A stretch of DNA of 21,281 nt, taken from a virus. Positions 3,355 to 19,583 of the stretch are shown one piece after another. The DNA lies in the IMG/VR virus record IMGVR_UViG_3300042691_016947, positions 1 through 21,281 of that record. One strand, 5' to 3'. Made by a program: the position numbers and the translations under genes. Within the stretch, counting starts at the first letter, position 1; each line of letters starts with the position of its first letter. Under the pieces are notes generated by a model that was not told the DNA's origin, did not search any database, and saw nothing but the letters and a program-made list of their open reading frames with translations.

Positions 3355-3592
3355 TTATATTCCTTTATATCTATATGATAATGGTATATGGGTAAAAAAT
3401 GTTAATGGTTTTATTCTTAAAACCAATAAATTTTCTAAACAAGTTGGTTATATAGATAAAATCAATAGAAAATTTAATAAAAATATTGTTGATTTATTCA
3501 GACCAATGACACAACAGGAATGTTTTGAACATGGTAAAGAGATACAAAAAATGTTAAATAATAGAAAATTAATAAAACAAAATGTTAGTTAA
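3344..3592 (+). CDS. Small hypothetical protein, 82 aa
   Basis: Unrecognised. Residues 1-25 look beta-rich (PLYLYDNGIWVKNVNGFILK) and the C-terminal half is basic and helical. There is no signal peptide, membrane segment or metal-binding pattern. It overlaps the ligase by 11 bases and the rIIA-like gene by 11 bases, so it is probably translated by coupling between the two. Both overlaps and the complete frame argue that it is a real gene. Confidence 0.68.
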   Translation: MENNYIPLYLYDNGIWVKNVNGFILKTNKFSKQVGYIDKINRKFNKNIVDLFRPMTQQECFEHGKEIQKMLNNRKLIKQNVS

Positions 3593-6125
3593 TCAAATTA
3601 ATAGTGTTGAACTAGAAGGTTTAGATAATGAAGTAGAAGCAAAAATTGATAAGAAAAATTTAGGTTTTATTTTAGATTTACTTACTAGACAACAATATAA
3701 AGACCCAATTGGTTCTATTGTTAGAGAAATAACATCTAATTGTTTTGATGCCCACGTTGAGGGAGAAGTTGATTTACCAGTAATTATTAATTTTGATAAA
3801 GATGAAGAAGGTAAATTTATAGAATTTGTAGATAGTGGTTGTGGTCTTTCGCCAGAAAGAATGGAAAATATTTATATGTCTTATGGTGAAAGTACTAAAA
3901 GAAACACTAAAAAACAAATAGGTGGTTATGGTCTTGGTGGCAAATCTCCATTATCTTATACTGATTCATATTATGTTATAACAAAATATAACAATATTCG
4001 TTATACATATATAATTTATAAAGGTAAAGAGTTACCAACTTATTCTTTGTTATTTGAAGAACCTATAACAGAAGCAAATGGTACTACTGTTAAAATTTAC
4101 ATTAAAAATGATGATGATTATTATAAATTCATTAAAAAATGTAAAGAACAGTTAGTATATTTTAAAAATGTTTATTTTAAAAATGGTTATCTTTTTAATA
4201 ATGATTATAAAATATTAGAAGCAAATAATTTTATATTTCGTTCTGATATTCTAACGTTAGTTGATTATGCTACTGCTCTAAATACTTTACATATTTGTAT
4301 TGGTAACGTTTATTATCCTATCGATTGGCAAAAAATAGGTAGAGAACCTATTCCATTACCAATAGCATTAAAATTCGAAATAAATGACCTTGATGTTACT
4401 CCTGAAAGAGAATCATTAAGGTATATTGAAATTAATGGTAAAGAAACAGTAGATATTATTAATAAAAAAATTGATAAAGTATTAAGAGAATTTAGTAATA
4501 AGTATTATAAAAAAGAACCTAAAGAATATACTAATTTATTTGATTATTTAAGAAAATTAGATAGTAACAAAGATACTATTGAGATAGGTGGTATTAATTT
4601 TGGTTTATCAAAGTCTTTATTACCGAAAGGTTTAAATATTGTTTTTAGTCCAATACCTAATTTAACTGCTCAACTTTATAAAAATATATTTGATTATCTT
4701 AATGGTATTACATTTCATTGTTATATTAAAAAACAAAGAAAATCTGGTTATGATAGTAAACTTTCATTAAGTTATCTAATAGATACTAATTGTAAAGTTT
4801 TTTATGGAAGTATAACTAAAAAAGGTAGAAAATATATAAATGATTGTCATTCTAATTATATTATTATAGACAATGATTATGAAAATAATATTAAAACTGC
4901 TATATTTAAGTTTATAAAAAATAATTTTCAAGGTACTATTTGTAATGAGGTATATGAATTTGGAATTGATGTAGGTGATTGGGTTTATATTAGGGGTAGA
5001 ATTGATGAAGAATTTATATTAAGCTCTGTTGCAACAAGTACTGATTATATTACTTATACTGATAATTCAACTAATGCAGCATTAGCATCTGTTACTAGAG
5101 TAAAAATTAATAGAACTTCTAATCCTAATAAATTTAATTCTAAAACTTTAGGTTCGAATAATTTAGTTAGTTTATATAAAAACATATATAACTATTATAT
5201 TACTTATTTTGAAGATAAGTTTAGATATTTTAGTGATGAAGAAATTCCAGTAGAATATAGAAATAAATCTACAATTCTTAAAAAACAAGATGAAATAGTT
5301 GTATATCATATCAATAATCATCAAGTATCTAAACGTAAATTATACACTACTGTTGATAAAATTTATAAAAATCATGGTGCTTTAGTAATTTATGGTTTTT
5401 CTAAAGATATTGATATTTTAAATAATTGGGCTAAGTTATATGCTAATAGTAAATATAACACTACTGGTAATAGTGATAATTTTACTGCTACTAAAGCTAT
5501 GCACATTTATCAAATATCTCAAAAAGATGAAAAATATTTTTATAATAAACCAAATACAGTATATGTAAGAAATTTTATGGGTAACAATAGAGTATTTAAA
5601 AATACAGCAACAGCTTTATTAATTGATAAAGAATTAAAATCTAATAATATTACTATTAGTGATACAGTATTAGAAATGTTGAATAGAAATATATCTGAAC
5701 ATAAAGATGAACTAATATCTTATATAAAGAAATACGGTACTTATGGCGAAGATGAATTTCTAAATACAGTAATAGATGTAGCTAAAGAACATAATTTATT
5801 GAATAATGATATTATTGATAAAGCTAATATATTTAATAATTTTTATGATGGATTAGAATTAATAGGTTATATACCAGAAGTTAGTCAATTAGATGCTTTT
5901 AAGCATATAGTTAAGTTTTTAAGATTACTTAATAAACCTATAAATGAAGAATTATATAATCCTGAATTAGAATTACAAATTATTAAAGAAAGTATTGAAA
6001 AGCTAGATTATATAATATCACTTGATAAATATAATTATAGAGCTATGTCTAATTATAAAGATAAAAAACAAGAATTAATTAAACTAAATGAATGTTATGG
6101 CAAAGAAGAAAGAAAAGCAGCCTAG
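3582..6125 (+). CDS. rIIA: rIIA-like GHKL ATPase
   Basis: A large (847 aa) protein with an N-terminal GHKL (gyrase/Hsp90/histidine kinase/MutL) ATPase domain. The N box is REITSNCFDAH, with Glu49, Asn53 and Asp56. The G1 box is VDSGCG, with Asp84, Gly86 and Gly88. The G2 lid is GGYGLGGKSP, residues 114-123, with Lys121. A GTTVKIYI strand matches the later ATP-binding edge. In T4, rIIA with rIIB guards the infected cell against lysis during exclusion by a lambda lysogen, and rIIA-like proteins are common in crAss-like phages. The remaining roughly 600 residues are Asn/Lys/Tyr-rich with no motif that I recognise. It ends in TAG and overlaps the next gene. A MutL- or topoisomerase-like role is an alternative, but no such downstream domain is visible. 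Confidence 0.82.
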   Translation: MLVNQINSVELEGLDNEVEAKIDKKNLGFILDLLTRQQYKDPIGSIVREITSNCFDAHVEGEVDLPVIINFDKDEEGKFIEFVDSGCGLSPERMENIYMSYGESTKRNTKKQIGGYGLGGKSPLSYTDSYYVITKYNNIRYTYIIYKGKELPTYSLLFEEPITEANGTTVKIYIKNDDDYYKFIKKCKEQLVYFKNVYFKNGYLFNNDYKILEANNFIFRSDILTLVDYATALNTLHICIGNVYYPIDWQKIGREPIPLPIALKFEINDLDVTPERESLRYIEINGKETVDIINKKIDKVLREFSNKYYKKEPKEYTNLFDYLRKLDSNKDTIEIGGINFGLSKSLLPKGLNIVFSPIPNLTAQLYKNIFDYLNGITFHCYIKKQRKSGYDSKLSLSYLIDTNCKVFYGSITKKGRKYINDCHSNYIIIDNDYENNIKTAIFKFIKNNFQGTICNEVYEFGIDVGDWVYIRGRIDEEFILSSVATSTDYITYTDNSTNAALASVTRVKINRTSNPNKFNSKTLGSNNLVSLYKNIYNYYITYFEDKFRYFSDEEIPVEYRNKSTILKKQDEIVVYHINNHQVSKRKLYTTVDKIYKNHGALVIYGFSKDIDILNNWAKLYANSKYNTTGNSDNFTATKAMHIYQISQKDEKYFYNKPNTVYVRNFMGNNRVFKNTATALLIDKELKSNNITISDTVLEMLNRNISEHKDELISYIKKYGTYGEDEFLNTVIDVAKEHNLLNNDIIDKANIFNNFYDGLELIGYIPEVSQLDAFKHIVKFLRLLNKPINEELYNPELELQIIKESIEKLDYIISLDKYNYRAMSNYKDKKQELIKLNECYGKEERKAA

Positions 6126-9951: not shown

Positions 9952-10511
9952 TAACTGATATTGATAAATATGTTGATTTTCTTACTGCTAATGAAATTTC
10001 AGAGCATCAATTTTTAATATTATGGTTGGTACAAAATAAAGATATTAATAATATCAAAAAGTATAAATTAAAATTTAAACAATTCAATGTTGAAGAAATA
10101 TTAGATTTAATTGATAGAGGTTTCATTGATGATTTTGGTGTAGTAAGAGATAAACAAGAATTTGATATATTCAATTTTCTAGTTACAGATAAATTTTCAA
10201 AATTAGTTACTATTGATTATCAAGATGCTTATGATAATTTAGTTATGGTATATCCTAAGTGGGTTACTGTTCAAGGTAGAAAATATCCTACTATTACAGG
10301 TGACCCACTAAAGTTATCTAAAGAATATCTAAAATATCATAAAAATAATAGACTTGCAACTGAAAGAGTTGAAAGAATTACAAAGGAGTATTTTGCTAAT
10401 CCTAATGCTGTTGTAACTAATATAGAAAAATATATATTAAATAGATTATGGAATATATATGAAGAAGAAATAGTTAATAATCCAAAATCAAATCCTTTTA
10501 CAACGTTATAA
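9948..10511 (+). CDS. Hypothetical protein upstream of the DnaB-like helicase
   Basis: A 187-residue protein without a motif I can name. The first 60 residues look like three helices followed by a short wing (VEEILDLIDRGFIDDFGVV), compatible with a winged-helix fold. The second half has an aromatic strand region (VYPKWVTVQGRKYP) and C-terminal helices. It begins with an ATGA overlap and its stop shares one base with the helicase start (TAATG). Phage helicase loaders and initiators often sit just before the replicative helicase, so this is a candidate loader or organiser by position only; it has no Walker motif. Confidence 0.65.
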   Translation: MITDIDKYVDFLTANEISEHQFLILWLVQNKDINNIKKYKLKFKQFNVEEILDLIDRGFIDDFGVVRDKQEFDIFNFLVTDKFSKLVTIDYQDAYDNLVMVYPKWVTVQGRKYPTITGDPLKLSKEYLKYHKNNRLATERVERITKEYFANPNAVVTNIEKYILNRLWNIYEEEIVNNPKSNPFTTL

Positions 10512-12429: not shown

Positions 12430-12450
12430 GAAATTTTAAAAATAAATTTC
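12430..12450. repeat. Inverted repeat upstream of promoter 1
   Basis: GAAATTT, a seven-base spacer and AAATTTC, beginning directly after the stop codon of the upstream gene. The same arms recur just upstream of the second promoter at 16489-16510. It may be an operator or a weak AT-only terminator; the stem is too AT-rich to be a confident terminator. Confidence 0.45.
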
Positions 12451-12459
12451 TAAAAACAC

Positions 12460-12490
12460 TTGACACAAGGGTATAATTAAATTACCTTTG
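12460..12490 (+). promoter_or_regulatory. Bacteroidetes-type promoter 1
   Basis: TTG of the -33 element at 12460-12462 and TACCTTTG at 12483-12490, matching the Bacteroidetes -7 consensus TAnnTTTG, with 20 bases between them. This is the normal spacing for the primary sigma factor of that phylum. It lies in one of the few real intergenic gaps and points at the gene at 12556. Transcription should start near 12494-12497. Confidence 0.72.
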
Positions 12491-12510
12491 TCTTACAAAA
12501 TCGGAGTTGA

Positions 12511-12555
12511 TAACTCACTAAATAAAAACCGTTTAATCACTAAATCCAAAAAATT
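12511..12555 (+). promoter_or_regulatory. Leader with TCACTAAAT direct repeats
   Basis: The untranslated leader holds TCACTAAAT twice (12515-12523 and 12537-12545), 22 bases apart start to start. The second copy runs on as TCACTAAATCCAAAA up to the ATG. The second promoter's leader has nearly the same sequence (16542-16565). It is a candidate translation enhancer or regulator site; no Shine-Dalgarno sequence is present. Confidence 0.5.
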
Positions 12556-13107
12556 ATGTTAGACTTTGGTAACATTTCAGTCGTAGAAAAAACCTTTACA
12601 CGTACAGGTGGAGTAAGCCGTAAACAAGCTTATAATGGTATTAAATTTCGTAGAACAGCATCTAAAAAAGGTGGTGTTGAAGGAATTGATACATTTTTTG
12701 TAGTATCTAATCATCTATTTGAAAAATTAGGTTTAGCTACTAATGCTTTAACTCAAATTGCACTTCCTGATGGTTCAGTAGGTCTAATTGTAGTTGAGGA
12801 CCAAGATAAATTAGAACCAGTTGCTAAATTTATGCGCCAGTCAAAGAAAACTGATGGTACATTTCAAAAGAAAGGTAAGACAATCAATAATGACATTTTA
12901 AGAGATGCTCTTATTGCTGCTGGTACTCTTAGTGCAGATGCTATGGGTTCACAATTCTTAACTTTAGAATCAGTTGCAGCATCCAATGTTCCTGCTCATG
13001 TAAAAGGTGTTTACAAAATTGTTGTAGATGCAACTGTAAATGCAGCAGAAGCAGAAGCAGAAGAAGGTCAAACTGAATCAGTAGAATCTGACGACCAAAA
13101 CTTCTAA
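12556..13107 (+). CDS. Monocistronic protein with SSB-like acidic tip, 183 aa
   Basis: I do not recognise the fold. The first 40 residues are basic (VSRKQAYNGIKFRRTASKK). Residues 45-155 look alpha/beta, with a Lys-rich loop (RQSKKTDGTFQKKGKT) suited to DNA binding. The tail from about 160 is acidic and low in complexity (AEAEAEEGQTESVESDDQNF) and ends in DDQNF, like the protein-docking tips of bacterial SSB and T7 gp2.5. It has its own promoter, a conserved leader and a strong terminator, so it is probably made in large amounts as a single-gene transcript. An abundant DNA-binding protein is the best inference. It could act with, or in place of, the SSB-like protein encoded next. Confidence 0.82.
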   Translation: MLDFGNISVVEKTFTRTGGVSRKQAYNGIKFRRTASKKGGVEGIDTFFVVSNHLFEKLGLATNALTQIALPDGSVGLIVVEDQDKLEPVAKFMRQSKKTDGTFQKKGKTINNDILRDALIAAGTLSADAMGSQFLTLESVAASNVPAHVKGVYKIVVDATVNAAEAEAEEGQTESVESDDQNF

Positions 13108-13129
13108 AATAATCTCTCTCAACCCGATT

Positions 13130-13170
13130 ATAGGCTACTATTAATGTTCTTAGTAGCCTATTTTTATTTA
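13130..13170 (+). terminator. Strong rho-independent terminator
   Basis: A perfect 11-bp stem ATAGGCTACTA / TAGTAGCCTAT with a 10-base loop, followed by TTTTATTTA. It sits 22 bases after the stop of the preceding gene and closes the single-gene unit started by promoter 1. Confidence 0.9.
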
Positions 13171-13194
13171 ATTTAAAATTTAAAAAATAACAAC

Positions 13195-13983
13195 ATGGGA
13201 TTAAAAGTTAATAAATCAGATGAACAAGTTGTAAAACAATCAAGTCTTTATACAGGTGTAAATAAATTCGTAATTACATCTATTAATCCGACTAAAGCTG
13301 AAATGGAAGCTATGGGCATGAAACCACAAAATGACCCAGTATATAAAGGTGATGATGGTAAAGTTAGAATTGATTTTTATATGAAATCAGCTGACGGTAA
13401 AGCAAGAGCAAAAGCATCTTTTTGGTTAGAACCTAAAATTAGAAAAAATCAAAATGGCGATAAAGTACAATGGGTAAATAAATTTGGTGTATTTGCATGG
13501 TCATCAAGTGAAACTACTGTTCCTCAATATGATTGGTTTAAAACAGAAGGAGCAAGACCAGCATATATTGGAGAAGAAACTTTATTTAGTAATTCTAAAG
13601 GTTTTATTCCTGCATGGGCTAATATCTCATTAGATGACCAAGCTATTGTTGATGATATTGAAGCATTAGTGAATGGTAATGTAAAAGAATTAAAAGATAT
13701 TTATGCCCAAATACCTAATAACGAAGTTAAATGTTTATTAGGTGTTAAAGATGGTCAATATCAAGATATTTATACAAAATATTTCCAAAGAGCAAGTATT
13801 CAAAATCATGGTGCTTGGTCTAAAGCATTAAAAGAACAATATGGTGAGTTTAAATCAGATTTTCAAAGAAGTCTTGAATTTAAACCATATGAAGGTTCTA
13901 CTAATGTTGACCTAGAAACTCCTACTGATATGCCAGATACTAACAGTTCTGGTGGTGGAGAAAAGAAAAAATATAACTTTTAA
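13195..13983 (+). CDS. Putative single-stranded DNA-binding protein
   Basis: A 262-residue protein whose features match the SSB-like proteins found with this gene set in crAss-like and other Bacteroidetes phages. A beta-rich first half contains VRIDFYMKS, ASFWLEPKIR and KFGVFAWSSSE, followed by the region RPAYIGEETL...FIPAWANI, several aromatic residues suited to stacking on DNA bases, and a C-terminal linker that is acidic before a short KKKYNF end. It should coat ssDNA for the helicase, primase and Sak4-like ATPase. It follows a terminator and precedes another, and I see no clear promoter in the 24 bases between, so its transcript may come from read-through of promoter 1. The assignment rests on pattern memory and context, not on a diagnostic motif. 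Confidence 0.62.
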   Translation: MGLKVNKSDEQVVKQSSLYTGVNKFVITSINPTKAEMEAMGMKPQNDPVYKGDDGKVRIDFYMKSADGKARAKASFWLEPKIRKNQNGDKVQWVNKFGVFAWSSSETTVPQYDWFKTEGARPAYIGEETLFSNSKGFIPAWANISLDDQAIVDDIEALVNGNVKELKDIYAQIPNNEVKCLLGVKDGQYQDIYTKYFQRASIQNHGAWSKALKEQYGEFKSDFQRSLEFKPYEGSTNVDLETPTDMPDTNSSGGGEKKKYNF

Positions 13984-13987
13984 AAAT

Positions 13988-14017
13988 AGGGGAGATAACA
14001 CTCCCCTTTTTATTTTT
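13988..14017 (+). terminator. Rho-independent terminator
   Basis: AGGGGAG, a six-base loop ATAACA, CTCCCCT and then TTTTATTTTT, starting four bases after the SSB-like gene stop. The stem is GC-rich in a very AT-rich genome. The next gene starts directly after the T-tract at 14018. Confidence 0.92.
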
Positions 14018-16104: not shown

Positions 16105-16497
16105 ATGATAAAAAATGTAATTTTAATATTATTATTTTTTATAGCTACTACAAGTTATAGTCAAATTATAACTTATGAAACTATACAAAAAAGAGAGTAT
16201 GATATACAGTCTAAAAAGATACTTAAAGATAGTATATTTGCTCAACATGGTAAAATTGTAATATCTAAAGATAAAAAGATAATTACACAAGAAGAAGGTA
16301 ACAATAGATGGGAGTTTAAACTTATTGATTACAATAAGGAACAGAATTTATACTATTATTATATAGATGGAGAACCAAATCCTTATGCTTTATCACTTGC
16401 ATTACATCCTACTGGTCATATTATAATAGCTTGGGATAAAAATGAATACACTATATATTTAGTAAAAATTCAAATTGTCACTTACAAAGAAATTTAA
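16105..16497 (+). CDS. Secreted protein with signal peptide, 130 aa
   Basis: The N-terminus is a textbook signal peptide: MIKN, a hydrophobic core VILILLFFIATT and the cleavage region SYSQ. SxSQ endings are common in secreted Bacteroidetes proteins. The mature part (about 110 residues) is beta-rich with charged turns (KIVISKDKKIITQEE, WEFKLIDY, YYYYIDGE) and has no cysteine, so it is not a lipoprotein and has no disulphides. It should end up in the periplasm or outside the cell. It stands at the end of the primase operon, just before promoter 2. Superinfection exclusion or envelope modification are possible roles; no motif decides. Confidence 0.75.
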   Translation: MIKNVILILLFFIATTSYSQIITYETIQKREYDIQSKKILKDSIFAQHGKIVISKDKKIITQEEGNNRWEFKLIDYNKEQNLYYYYIDGEPNPYALSLALHPTGHIIIAWDKNEYTIYLVKIQIVTYKEI

Positions 16498-16510
16498 TTT
16501 CTGAAATTTC
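16488..16510. repeat. Inverted repeat upstream of promoter 2
   Basis: GAAATTT (16489-16495), an eight-base spacer and AAATTTC (16504-16510), the same arms as the repeat ahead of promoter 1. An alternative tighter hairpin AGAAAT-TTA-ATTTCT (16488-16502) shares the left side and covers the stop codon of the secreted-protein gene. Confidence 0.45.
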
Positions 16511-16544
16511 TTACATTTTATTACAAAGTTCTTTATCTTTGTAA
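16511..16544 (+). promoter_or_regulatory. Bacteroidetes-type promoter 2 with overlapping inverted repeat
   Basis: TATCTTTG at 16534-16541 matches the TAnnTTTG -7 element. The -33 position (16511-16514) reads TTAC, a weak match to TTTG. An 8-bp perfect inverted repeat TTACAAAG (16521-16528) / CTTTGTAA (16537-16544) overlaps the -7 element and could be a repressor or activator site. The weak -33 plus the operator-like repeat suggest a regulated promoter for the nuclease-thyX-kinase unit. Confidence 0.65.
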
Positions 16545-16565
16545 CTCACTGAAATCCAAAATTTT
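16542..16565 (+). promoter_or_regulatory. Leader motif shared with promoter 1
   Basis: TAACTCACTGAAATCCAAAA followed by TTTT and the ATG. It matches the leader of the gene at 12556 nearly base for base. The promoter-proximal half there is TAACTCACTAAAT and the start-proximal half is TCACTAAATCCAAAA; here the two are merged into one copy. Confidence 0.5.
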
Positions 16566-17729
16566 ATGATAAAACCAAAAGATAGTTATTATCAAAATAA
16601 TGTTAATGATGTAACATATAGTTACAGTTTAGCTAAAACAATTAGTCCTGATTTTAATGGACACCCTAAATTATTTAAAAAGATATTAGAAGAAGGTTCA
16701 CAACCAACTAAATTTACTGAACTAGGAGAATTAATTCATAAATATTTGGAAGACCCAGATAGTTTTGTAGCTGCTGAATTAGATTTACCTCCAACGCAAT
16801 TTGCAGCTATGACAGAGGAATTATATAAAATTTATCATTTAGAAGGTTATAAAGATGATAATAGGTTTGCTAGTTATATTAGTCCTACATTAGATATTGC
16901 TGAATGGGATTTAGTAGGAGTATTATATACTAATATTAAAGGTTTTAAACCAAATCAGGAAGAATTATTTCATTTTGCTAAATGTTTATATTTTTCAAGA
17001 CAATCAGTTGAACTTGATAAAAGATTAAAACCAGCTACTATAATTGAAAAATTTCAATTATGTTTACCTTATTATCAATTTTTAGTAAAAGCTACTGGCA
17101 AATTAGTATTGTCTGCATCTGATAAAAATCATTTAGCTAATGTAAAAGAAGCTATAAAAAATGATAGTAGATTAACTGACGTTTTAACTTATAACGCAGA
17201 AGAAGAGTTGTATTGGCAAGAAAGTTATGAAGTAGAAGTTAGTAATAGTGCTATTGTAAATCATACTATTAAACGTAAAGGTAAAGTTGATAGATATAAA
17301 ATAACTGAAATACCTATTGAAACACCAGAAGGTGAAGAACCTAAATTTAAATTAAAATTATCAATTAGAGATTTTAAAACAACATCTAAACCTATTGGTG
17401 GATATTTGAGTTATATTTATGAAAGTAATATGATAATTCAATTAATTAATTATGCTGTTGGTATTTATTATTCTAAAATTAAAACAAATGATAGATATAA
17501 AGATATTAAAATTGAAGAAATTGAATATGATTTAGGATTCATTGTTATTGAATTAGATAATAATTATCCTATTAGTATTTTTAAATTAGAACAAGATTAT
17601 TATAATTTTGTTTATCATTTCAACGATTATAAATCATTATTTAAAAAAGTATGTTTCCATGAAATTACTGGAAACTATGATATTACAATGGAAGAACAAT
17701 TAAATACAGAAAAAGTAATTTTAATATGA
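16566..17729 (+). CDS. PD-(D/E)XK nuclease, RecB/Cas4-like
   Basis: The RecB-family nuclease motifs are all visible and correctly spaced: motif I GELIHKY with His58; a Glu-rich strand followed by KGKVDR with Asp242; the DxK motif RDFKTT with Asp269 and Lys271; and QLINY with Gln292 and Tyr296. These residues bind Mg2+ and cut DNA; enzymes of this type act as exonucleases that resect ends for annealing proteins. The Sak4-like ATPase and SSB in this window would be natural partners. Length is 387 aa, with an extra N-terminal helical region of about 200 residues between motifs I and II. It has its own promoter and overlaps the next gene by ATGA. Confidence 0.8.
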   Translation: MIKPKDSYYQNNVNDVTYSYSLAKTISPDFNGHPKLFKKILEEGSQPTKFTELGELIHKYLEDPDSFVAAELDLPPTQFAAMTEELYKIYHLEGYKDDNRFASYISPTLDIAEWDLVGVLYTNIKGFKPNQEELFHFAKCLYFSRQSVELDKRLKPATIIEKFQLCLPYYQFLVKATGKLVLSASDKNHLANVKEAIKNDSRLTDVLTYNAEEELYWQESYEVEVSNSAIVNHTIKRKGKVDRYKITEIPIETPEGEEPKFKLKLSIRDFKTTSKPIGGYLSYIYESNMIIQLINYAVGIYYSKIKTNDRYKDIKIEEIEYDLGFIVIELDNNYPISIFKLEQDYYNFVYHFNDYKSLFKKVCFHEITGNYDITMEEQLNTEKVILI

Positions 17730-18478: not shown

Positions 18479-19583
18479 GATAATTGCCGATTCTTCTAAT
18501 GAGTATGGTAATAGAATAACAACTTTTGTATGTACTTACCCAAGAATAATTCATGCAGAAGTAATGACACATAGAATGTTTTCAAGAAATGCAGCTAGTA
18601 GTAGAGCAATTCCTGTTAAAAAATTAATTGAATCGGTAAAAAATAACCCTTTTGTTCCAATAGCTTTTCAAAAAGAACATTCTGGTATGCAAGGTAATGA
18701 ATATATAGAAGATACTAGTCTACTTGTAGAAAAATGGTTACAAGCTAGAGATAGTGCAATTCATCATGCCCAACAAATGCTAGATTTTGGAGCTACTAAA
18801 CAATTAATTAATAGATTATTAGAACCTTACCAATGGTATACATCAATTATAACTGCTACTGAATGGGAAAATTTCTTTGCATTAAGATGTCCACAATATG
18901 AACTTTATGCAGGTCCAGAAAATACTAATGAATATTTATGTAAAGGAAGAAGTTGGAAAGATTTTATGAAATCTAATAATGGACTTGCGGGAGATTTTGA
19001 TACTGATAATGTAGTAGAAAGACTAAAACTTAATAAAGGTCAAGCTGAAATTCACATGATGGCTTTAGCTGAAGCAATGTGGGATGCTTATAATGAATCT
19101 ACTCCTAAAGAACTTAAAGCTGGAGAATGGCATATTCCTTTTTCTGTTGAACCAAGAGAAGAAAATCAAATTAAACAATTTTCTGATTTAGTAAGAAATG
19201 GTATTGTTAAAGATGGTTGGGAAGCTCAAATTAAAATAGCAACAGCTAGATGTGCAAGAGTATCATATACAGTAGTAGGTGAAGAAGGTAAACCTGATAA
19301 CTATGAGAATGATATTAAATTACATGATAGATTAGCTGCTAGTGGTCATTGGAGTCCATTTGAGCATTGTGCTAAAGTTATGGATGAATTAGAATATTAT
19401 GAAAGATATTCTGGTATATATCCTACTTTAAAAGAACAAGATGGTGATATATTTAATGCAGAAGCTTATTGTACTGGAGAATATAAAAATACAATTACAA
19501 ATGGCAATCATGGTTGGTCAGGTAATTTTAGAGGATTTATTCAGTATCGTAAAATGTTTGATAACGAAAATATAACAAAATGA
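18459..19583 (+). CDS. thyX: Flavin-dependent thymidylate synthase (divergent, permuted motif order)
   Basis: Makes dTMP from dUMP using methylene-tetrahydrofolate, FAD and NADPH. The ThyX signature appears at residues 37-47 as THR-x7-Ser (THRMFSRNAAS), with Thr for the first Arg of RHRX7S, followed by SSRA. Next come the segments normally found after it: LINRLLEPYQWYTSIITATEWENF and GQAEIHMMALAEAM. The segments that precede the signature in ordinary ThyX, ARCARVSY and SGHWSPFEH, are instead at about residues 262-302, near the C-terminus. Phage proteins with this signature are known as divergent ThyX. Length is 374 aa against about 220-250 for ordinary ThyX. It overlaps the HNH gene by 20 bases and the next gene by ATGA. 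Confidence 0.82.
   Translation: MTQITAKIIADSSNEYGNRITTFVCTYPRIIHAEVMTHRMFSRNAASSRAIPVKKLIESVKNNPFVPIAFQKEHSGMQGNEYIEDTSLLVEKWLQARDSAIHHAQQMLDFGATKQLINRLLEPYQWYTSIITATEWENFFALRCPQYELYAGPENTNEYLCKGRSWKDFMKSNNGLAGDFDTDNVVERLKLNKGQAEIHMMALAEAMWDAYNESTPKELKAGEWHIPFSVEPREENQIKQFSDLVRNGIVKDGWEAQIKIATARCARVSYTVVGEEGKPDNYENDIKLHDRLAASGHWSPFEHCAKVMDELEYYERYSGIYPTLKEQDGDIFNAEAYCTGEYKNTITNGNHGWSGNFRGFIQYRKMFDNENITK

Follow-up and report, generated by a model that had tools for sequence, protein, structure and literature searches.

Two intergenic modules built from the same parts, namely an A/T-rich inverted repeat, a TAnnTTTG promoter and a leader running to the ATG, stand before two genes of a 21,281-base viral DNA (the window, which is the whole IMG/VR record), and the first of them is conserved in related phage contigs. 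The pattern is real and its core is ordinary; the useful fact is a conserved promoter plus leader within a crAss-like replication block. The modules are probably two host-type promoters, each with an efficient initiation region, which boost a block of replication proteins and a RecE-like nuclease.

Results

Gene content and phage identity

The window has a GC content of 25.6%, and its major genes, all on the plus strand, encode a DNA polymerase A, a ligase, an rIIA-like ATPase, an SF2 helicase, a DnaB-like helicase, a Sak4-like ATPase, a primase, RusA-like and RecE-like nucleases and ThyX; no structural genes were found within the 21,281 bases. CrAss-like phages were among the main matches of the DnaB-like helicase, the primase and the gp81-like protein, and they match the helicase, the primase and the 262-aa protein encoded at 13195 at about 23-35% identity. 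The relative contig G001 (124,964 bases) carries crAss-type terminase, portal and capsid genes. Judged from the replication matches and from these structural genes, the window represents a crAss-like (Crassvirales) replication block, from a phage with a Bacteroidota host. The 847-aa protein encoded at 3582-6125 has a GHKL ATPase domain and matches rIIA-like proteins of many phages. Within the ThyX gene, 119 bp (19024-19142) share 87% identity with Flavobacterium psychrophilum phages (Fipvunavirus), much more than anywhere else in the window; this perhaps reflects gene exchange and hints at a Flavobacterium host.

The genes are tightly packed, so that after the first gene only three gaps exceed 20 bp (12430-12555, 13108-13194 and 16498-16565), together about 1.3% of the window, and the modules occupy the first and the last of them. 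The features referred to below are as follows.

12430..12450, no strand, inverted repeat 1: GAAATTTTAAAAATAAATTTC, GAAATTT-N7-AAATTTC, with 8-bp arms counting AGAAATTT/AAATTTCT
12460..12490, plus strand, promoter 1: -33 TTG at 12460-12462, 20-bp spacer, -7 element TACCTTTG at 12483-12490
12495..12555, plus strand, leader 1: 61 nt from predicted start to ATG, with a hairpin and two TCACTAAAT copies
12556..13107, plus strand, gene of promoter 1: 183-aa protein, function not assigned by family match, acidic tail ending DDQNF
13130..13166, plus strand, terminator-like hairpin 1: 11-bp stem and T-run, just 3' of gene 12556
13195..13983, plus strand, next gene: 262 aa, homologue of crAss001 gp81
13988..14007, plus strand, terminator-like hairpin 2: 3' of the gp81-like gene, with T-run
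16489..16510, no strand, inverted repeat 2: GAAATTTAATTTCTGAAATTTC, GAAATTT-N8-AAATTTC
16534..16541, plus strand, promoter 2: -7 element TATCTTTG, no clear -33 TTTG
16546..16565, plus strand, leader 2: predicted 20-nt 5' UTR TCACTGAAATCCAAAATTTT
16566..17729, plus strand, gene of promoter 2: 387 aa, RecE/exonuclease VIII-like PD-(D/E)XK nuclease

Promoters

TAnnTTTG occurs at 21 sites on the plus strand of the window, and only two of these, TACCTTTG and TATCTTTG, lie outside genes. Both fit TAHHTTTG, the refined form of the -7 element recognized by the Bacteroidota primary sigma factor (sigma-ABfr), whose consensus is TTTG/TANNTTTG and which starts transcription 4-5 nt downstream (PMC6847099). 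Placed from the -7 element, the predicted starts fall at about 12495 and about 16546, and the resulting leader lengths, 61 and 20 nt, are plausible beside the mean of 33 nt in F. johnsoniae (PMC6847099). A -33 TTG with a 20-bp spacer is found at promoter 1, similarly in the relative L421, and none at promoter 2; this TTTG/TTG element is weak in F. johnsoniae (PMC6847099). Elements similar to both -7 elements also stand in gaps of G001, where the other intergenic TAnnTTTG sites have different leaders. The initial annotation had called the whole cassette phage-specific; the element that the promoters carry is the host-type one, and both promoters are probably of the sigma-ABfr type, their starts and strength being predicted. 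Compared with known sigma-ABfr promoters, those of the window differ in their place within a phage replication block, in the A/T-rich inverted repeat upstream and, for promoter 2, in the missing -33 element.

Inverted repeats

Repeat 1 directly follows the stop of the AAA/Sak4-like gene upstream and covers about -45 to -65 relative to the predicted start of transcription, and the left arm of repeat 2 overlaps the final codons and the stop of ORF 16105-16497. Module 1 has 33 bp between the right arm and the -7 element, module 2 has 24 bp. Both repeats stand upstream of the only two intergenic TAnnTTTG sites, and the pattern GAAATTTN{5,12}AAATTTC has just these two matches in the window and none in 100 shuffles (mean 0.00), an estimate that, like the others given here for motifs picked after the sequence was seen, is optimistic. 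When folded, the repeats reached -4.6 and -5.6 kcal/mol (z about -3), better than shuffles, with one or two G-C pairs at most and no T-run behind repeat 1.

The 130-aa product of ORF 16105-16497 matches no family and has a signal-peptide-like stretch (MIKNVILILLFFIATTSYSQ) at its N terminus; the ORF sits between the replication genes and the nuclease, a place taken in L421 by an unrelated 61-aa ORF.

Leaders

The two leaders gave a local alignment score of 34, compared with 17.5 +/- 2.9 for dinucleotide shuffles, none of 2000 of which scored as high, and when the plus strand of the window was scanned with a sliding frame, the top non-self match of each leader was the other. Together with the shuffles of the repeats (0 of 100), this confirms that the order of repeat, TAnnTTTG and leader is truly shared by both sites. 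Over their whole length the upstream regions are weakly alike (63 of 2000 shuffles as good), with the likeness residing in the repeat, the -7 element and the leader, so the sites share short parts and are not a recent duplication of the whole stretch.

Leader 1 does hold two copies of TCACTAAAT spaced by 22 bases, as had been noticed from the letters (12515-12523 and 12537-12545). The leader pattern proposed at the same time, TCACTnAAATCCAAAA, holds for leader 2 alone: it is exact at 16546, whereas leader 1 reads TCACTAAATCCAAAA, without the extra base and with three mismatches when ungapped. In leader 2, TAACTCACT derives from the first copy of leader 1 and AAATCCAAAA from the second, so that leader 2 resembles a fusion of the two. 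From its predicted start, mRNA 2 begins exactly at the shared TCACT, and TCACT(g)AAATCCAAAA makes up nearly the whole 5' UTR, the 20-nt leader being the shared element plus UUUU.

Both leaders have AAATCC at -14 to -9. In F. johnsoniae, which initiates without a Shine-Dalgarno (SD) sequence, A at -14 to -11, -6 and -3 favours initiation (PMC6847099); both leaders have A at -14, -13, -12 and -6, and at -3 there is A in leader 1 and in L421 and T in leader 2, while the L421 leader has C at -6. Start position, AAATCC register and the A signal of F. johnsoniae thus make an efficient initiation region the simplest reading of the shared leader. The two leaders also share TCACT and CCAAAA, which goes beyond A-richness and which a generic initiation site needs in neither part. 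Leader 1 contains in addition a conserved block, CGTTTAATCACTAAA, at 12530-12544 (-26 to -12 from the ATG) and a weak predicted hairpin, GAGTT-GAT-AACTC, of 4-5 bp at 12504-12516; as a whole it is neither more stable nor less structured than shuffles. A second stem between the hairpin loop and the AUCAC block, as in a pseudoknot, was considered but not adopted, having only 3-4 bp, and an Rfam search gave no match.

Genes and hairpins downstream

Protein 12556 had no family match in Pfam, PHROG or PDB and no relatives in the GTDB genome collection, and its AlphaFold model (pLDDT 43) was too poor for use. Orthologues were found in L421-L425 (44%) and L243 (34%). Equivalence with crAss001 gp82, or with the protein that precedes the gp81-like gene in L287, L288, L251 and L265, was rejected, the sequences not being alignable. 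The hairpin at 13130-13166 is more stable than any of 200 shuffles (z = -6.0) and recurs at the same place behind the orthologue in L421 and L243.

The next protein, 13195, is a homologue of gp81, a conserved replication-block protein with an acidic, Phe-ended tail. A good structural model was obtained for it, and a PDB fold search with this model gave no significant match. The tails of both 12556 and 13195 end in F, that of 12556 being clearly acidic. From these tails and from their position, 13195 and probably 12556 may be single-strand-binding (SSB) proteins; matches by family, sequence or fold gave this identity no support for either. The hairpin after the second gene is also present in L421, and several relatives have hairpins in the corresponding position. 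A hairpin separating the gp81-like region from the primase recurs in many crAss-like relatives (L421, L244, L246, L251, L261, L266, L287 and L288).

The nuclease encoded at 16566 matches PHROG 412 (E = 5e-5), as does its L421 orthologue (30% identity; 6e-16), for which PDDEXK_1 was just under the cut-off.

Conservation in relatives and search for further copies

An alignment-based helicase search yielded 80 relatives, single-protein searches having yielded none, and the close relatives L421-L425 were reached through an alignment of 12556 with its L243 counterpart. Their identity to the window is 58% for helicase 7658, 53% for DnaB, 44% for gene 12556 and 48% for 13195. When the gap holding module 1 was compared between the window and L421, none of 1000 shuffles was as good, and the same was true of the leader alone (0 of 1000); the two further gaps that were compared are not conserved (145 of 1000 after 12556 and 381 of 1000 before the nuclease gene). 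Kept in L421 are AAATAAATTTC, then 8 bp, CTTGACA, TACCTTTG and, precisely at -26 to -12, CGTTTAATYACTAAA. Both phages have a predicted leader of 61 nt, conserved over about 48 nt. The weak hairpin keeps its position in L421 and differs by one double change (G-C to C-G), a compensatory change that is suggestive only and, between two sequences, lacks significance (247 of 500 shuffles). The claim of two promoter/leader modules before genes is thus borne out, with module 1 conserved in L421-L425.

L421 keeps the right half of repeat 1, AAATAAATTTC, 8 bp before CTTGACA as in the window, and has no left arm, so the conserved upstream part appears from this comparison to be a half-site or A/T-rich upstream element and not a palindrome. 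No intact inverted repeat was found anywhere in the 125-kb relative contig or in any of the 80 helicase relatives.

Module 2 gave a different picture. The L421 nuclease gene has no TAnnTTTG and no such leader, and it is preceded by a different, A/T-only inverted repeat (10085-10125; 15 bp, AAAATAATTTTAAAA / TTTTAAAATTATTTT) directly behind a stop codon; the L243 nuclease gene overlaps the preceding gene. Given its absence from L421 and L243, module 2 seems particular to the lineage of the window, as far as seen. An apparent 10-mer in common with L243, TTTAATCACT, was set aside: the whole-gap comparison is at chance level (695 of 1000), and what counts there is limited to a similar position of the gap and the hairpin behind the gene.

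Two further observations were made in the relatives. At 5571-5813 of L243 the Sak4-like gene seems, by eye, to be interrupted by a self-splicing-intron-like stretch, reading resuming at about 5814. At L430-L431 (G001 from 64267, minus strand) a very long open frame (at least 4,897 codons) carries DFDID and DVDYD motifs and is a candidate for crAss-type transcription proteins.

The initial annotation had also proposed a cassette controlling a chosen set of genes, for which copies were to be expected in the rest of the genome and in related phages. There are no copies in the 21,281-base window beyond the two. The 125-kb relative has one, before the 12556 orthologue, and no second leader above background, and the 80 helicase relatives gave a few leader-like matches, none forming a module. 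In IMG/VR leader scans (at least 120 stretches, then 117), promoter, leader and gene start came together only in the window, among the matches listed. The leader-pattern match in L191/L234, which also carry a primase homologue, was rejected since it falls inside the end of the primase gene. An IMG/VR scan for repeat plus promoter returned 98 stretches, with 3 of 102 matches before an ORF and none with the leader, which looks like chance. Beyond the two genes the cassette is therefore unsupported within the 21,281 bases of the window, and in related phages the search comes down to the single copy of the 125-kb relative and chance-like matches.

Discussion

In the reading that we consider probable, both modules would be internal sigma-ABfr-type promoters inside a crAss-like replication block, and the start-codon region of each mRNA would be an A-rich, SD-less and weakly structured initiation site. 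Module 1 would provide a separate strong start for two replication-type proteins with a terminator-like hairpin behind each, and we infer that promoter 1 together with stepwise termination would let 12556 and 13195 be made above the level of the helicase encoded before them and of the primase encoded after. For the RecE-like nuclease gene, module 2 would supply a separate start, located behind the lineage-specific ORF 16105-16497. The A/T-rich repeat before each promoter would most likely be a DNA upstream element or a regulator site, and the leaders would be alike because both are tuned initiation regions, with one probably also copied or fused from the other. Counting against this account are the missing -33 element of promoter 2, the L421 nuclease gene that does without a module, the sharing of TCACT and CCAAAA by the leaders and the virion RNA polymerase reported for the replication genes of phi14:2 (see below).

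Two other roles for the repeats were weighed. Were they operators for a phage or host regulator, the two promoters would form a small co-regulated pair, and the occurrence of exactly two copies, each before an intergenic promoter where none is expected by chance, would be well explained, as would the survival of the right half in L421, 8 bp ahead of the -33 region. However, L421 lacks the left arm and neither its 125 kb nor the other relatives hold an intact copy, the distance to the -7 element differs between the modules (33 vs 24 bp), the left arm in module 2 is also coding, and the IMG/VR matches to repeat plus promoter are chance-like; such an operator is thus not likely. That the repeats are 3'-end hairpins of the upstream transcripts (weak terminators or RNA stabilisers), unrelated to the promoters, would agree with their position at the stop codon of the upstream gene, with folding better than shuffles and with the different and longer A/T-only repeat of L421 at the equivalent place before its nuclease gene, but at -4.6 and -5.6 kcal/mol and with few G-C pairs they are far weaker than the terminator-like hairpins nearby, and conservation of the right half without the left in L421 fits promoter DNA better, which makes this role very unlikely.

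The shared leader could also be a translational operator through which a phage SSB or RegA-like protein, perhaps 12556 or 13195, represses both mRNAs, much as T4 gp32 acts on its own mRNA. In T4, the gene 32 operator consists of a structured element followed by UUAAA/UAAA repeats (PMC535899), and leader 1 has this layout, with a 5' hairpin and then an unstructured A/U-rich UAAA stretch to the AUG, before a block suspected to encode ssDNA-binding proteins. The sites of T4 RegA are poly(A) tracts that lack structure and lie just 5' of the AUG (PMC3014915), a form that both leaders have. The L421 hairpin at the same place, with its double change and equal leader length, and the F-ended tails of 12556 and 13195 point the same way, and an operator would account for the conservation of leader 1 and for shared CACT and CCAAAA in excess of a general initiation signal. 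Yet the double change lacks significance between two sequences and leader 1 is no different in structure from shuffles, UAAA is common in DNA of 25% GC, and compared with the T4 operator the hairpin is weak, no pseudoknot was found, the binder is a candidate only and leader 2 has no hairpin. Neither 12556 nor 13195 could be identified as an SSB, and the RegA family PF01818 had no match in the window or in G001, in a search that gave none in any control genome either. A translational operator is, on this evidence, unlikely, and the more specific proposal that both leaders are RNA operators bound by a crAss-phage SSB, in a feedback circuit evolved independently of T4 gp32, is quite unlikely.

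Efficient initiation regions, the favoured reading of the leaders, have their closest known counterpart in the SD-less regions of Flavobacterium (PMC6847099), which they resemble in A at -14 to -12 and -6, in A at -3 for leader 1 and in having little structure; they differ from these in sharing CACT and CCAAAA and in the conservation of leader 1 over about 48 nt in a relative.

Published accounts disagree on which crAss-like replication genes are left to the host polymerase and which to the virion RNA polymerase that is injected. For phi14:2, a crAss-like phage, it is reported that the virion enzyme reads the replication genes, with resistance to rifampicin (PMC10136315), whereas the crAss001 study prefers the host RNA polymerase for middle genes (PMC8375218), so that either polymerase may read the genes described here. 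A host-type promoter that is conserved within the replication block gives this question a concrete and testable site, and the conserved leader is a candidate site for the control of replication proteins. If SSB-bound leader operators were true after all, they would amount to a translational feedback linking the expression of replication and recombination genes.
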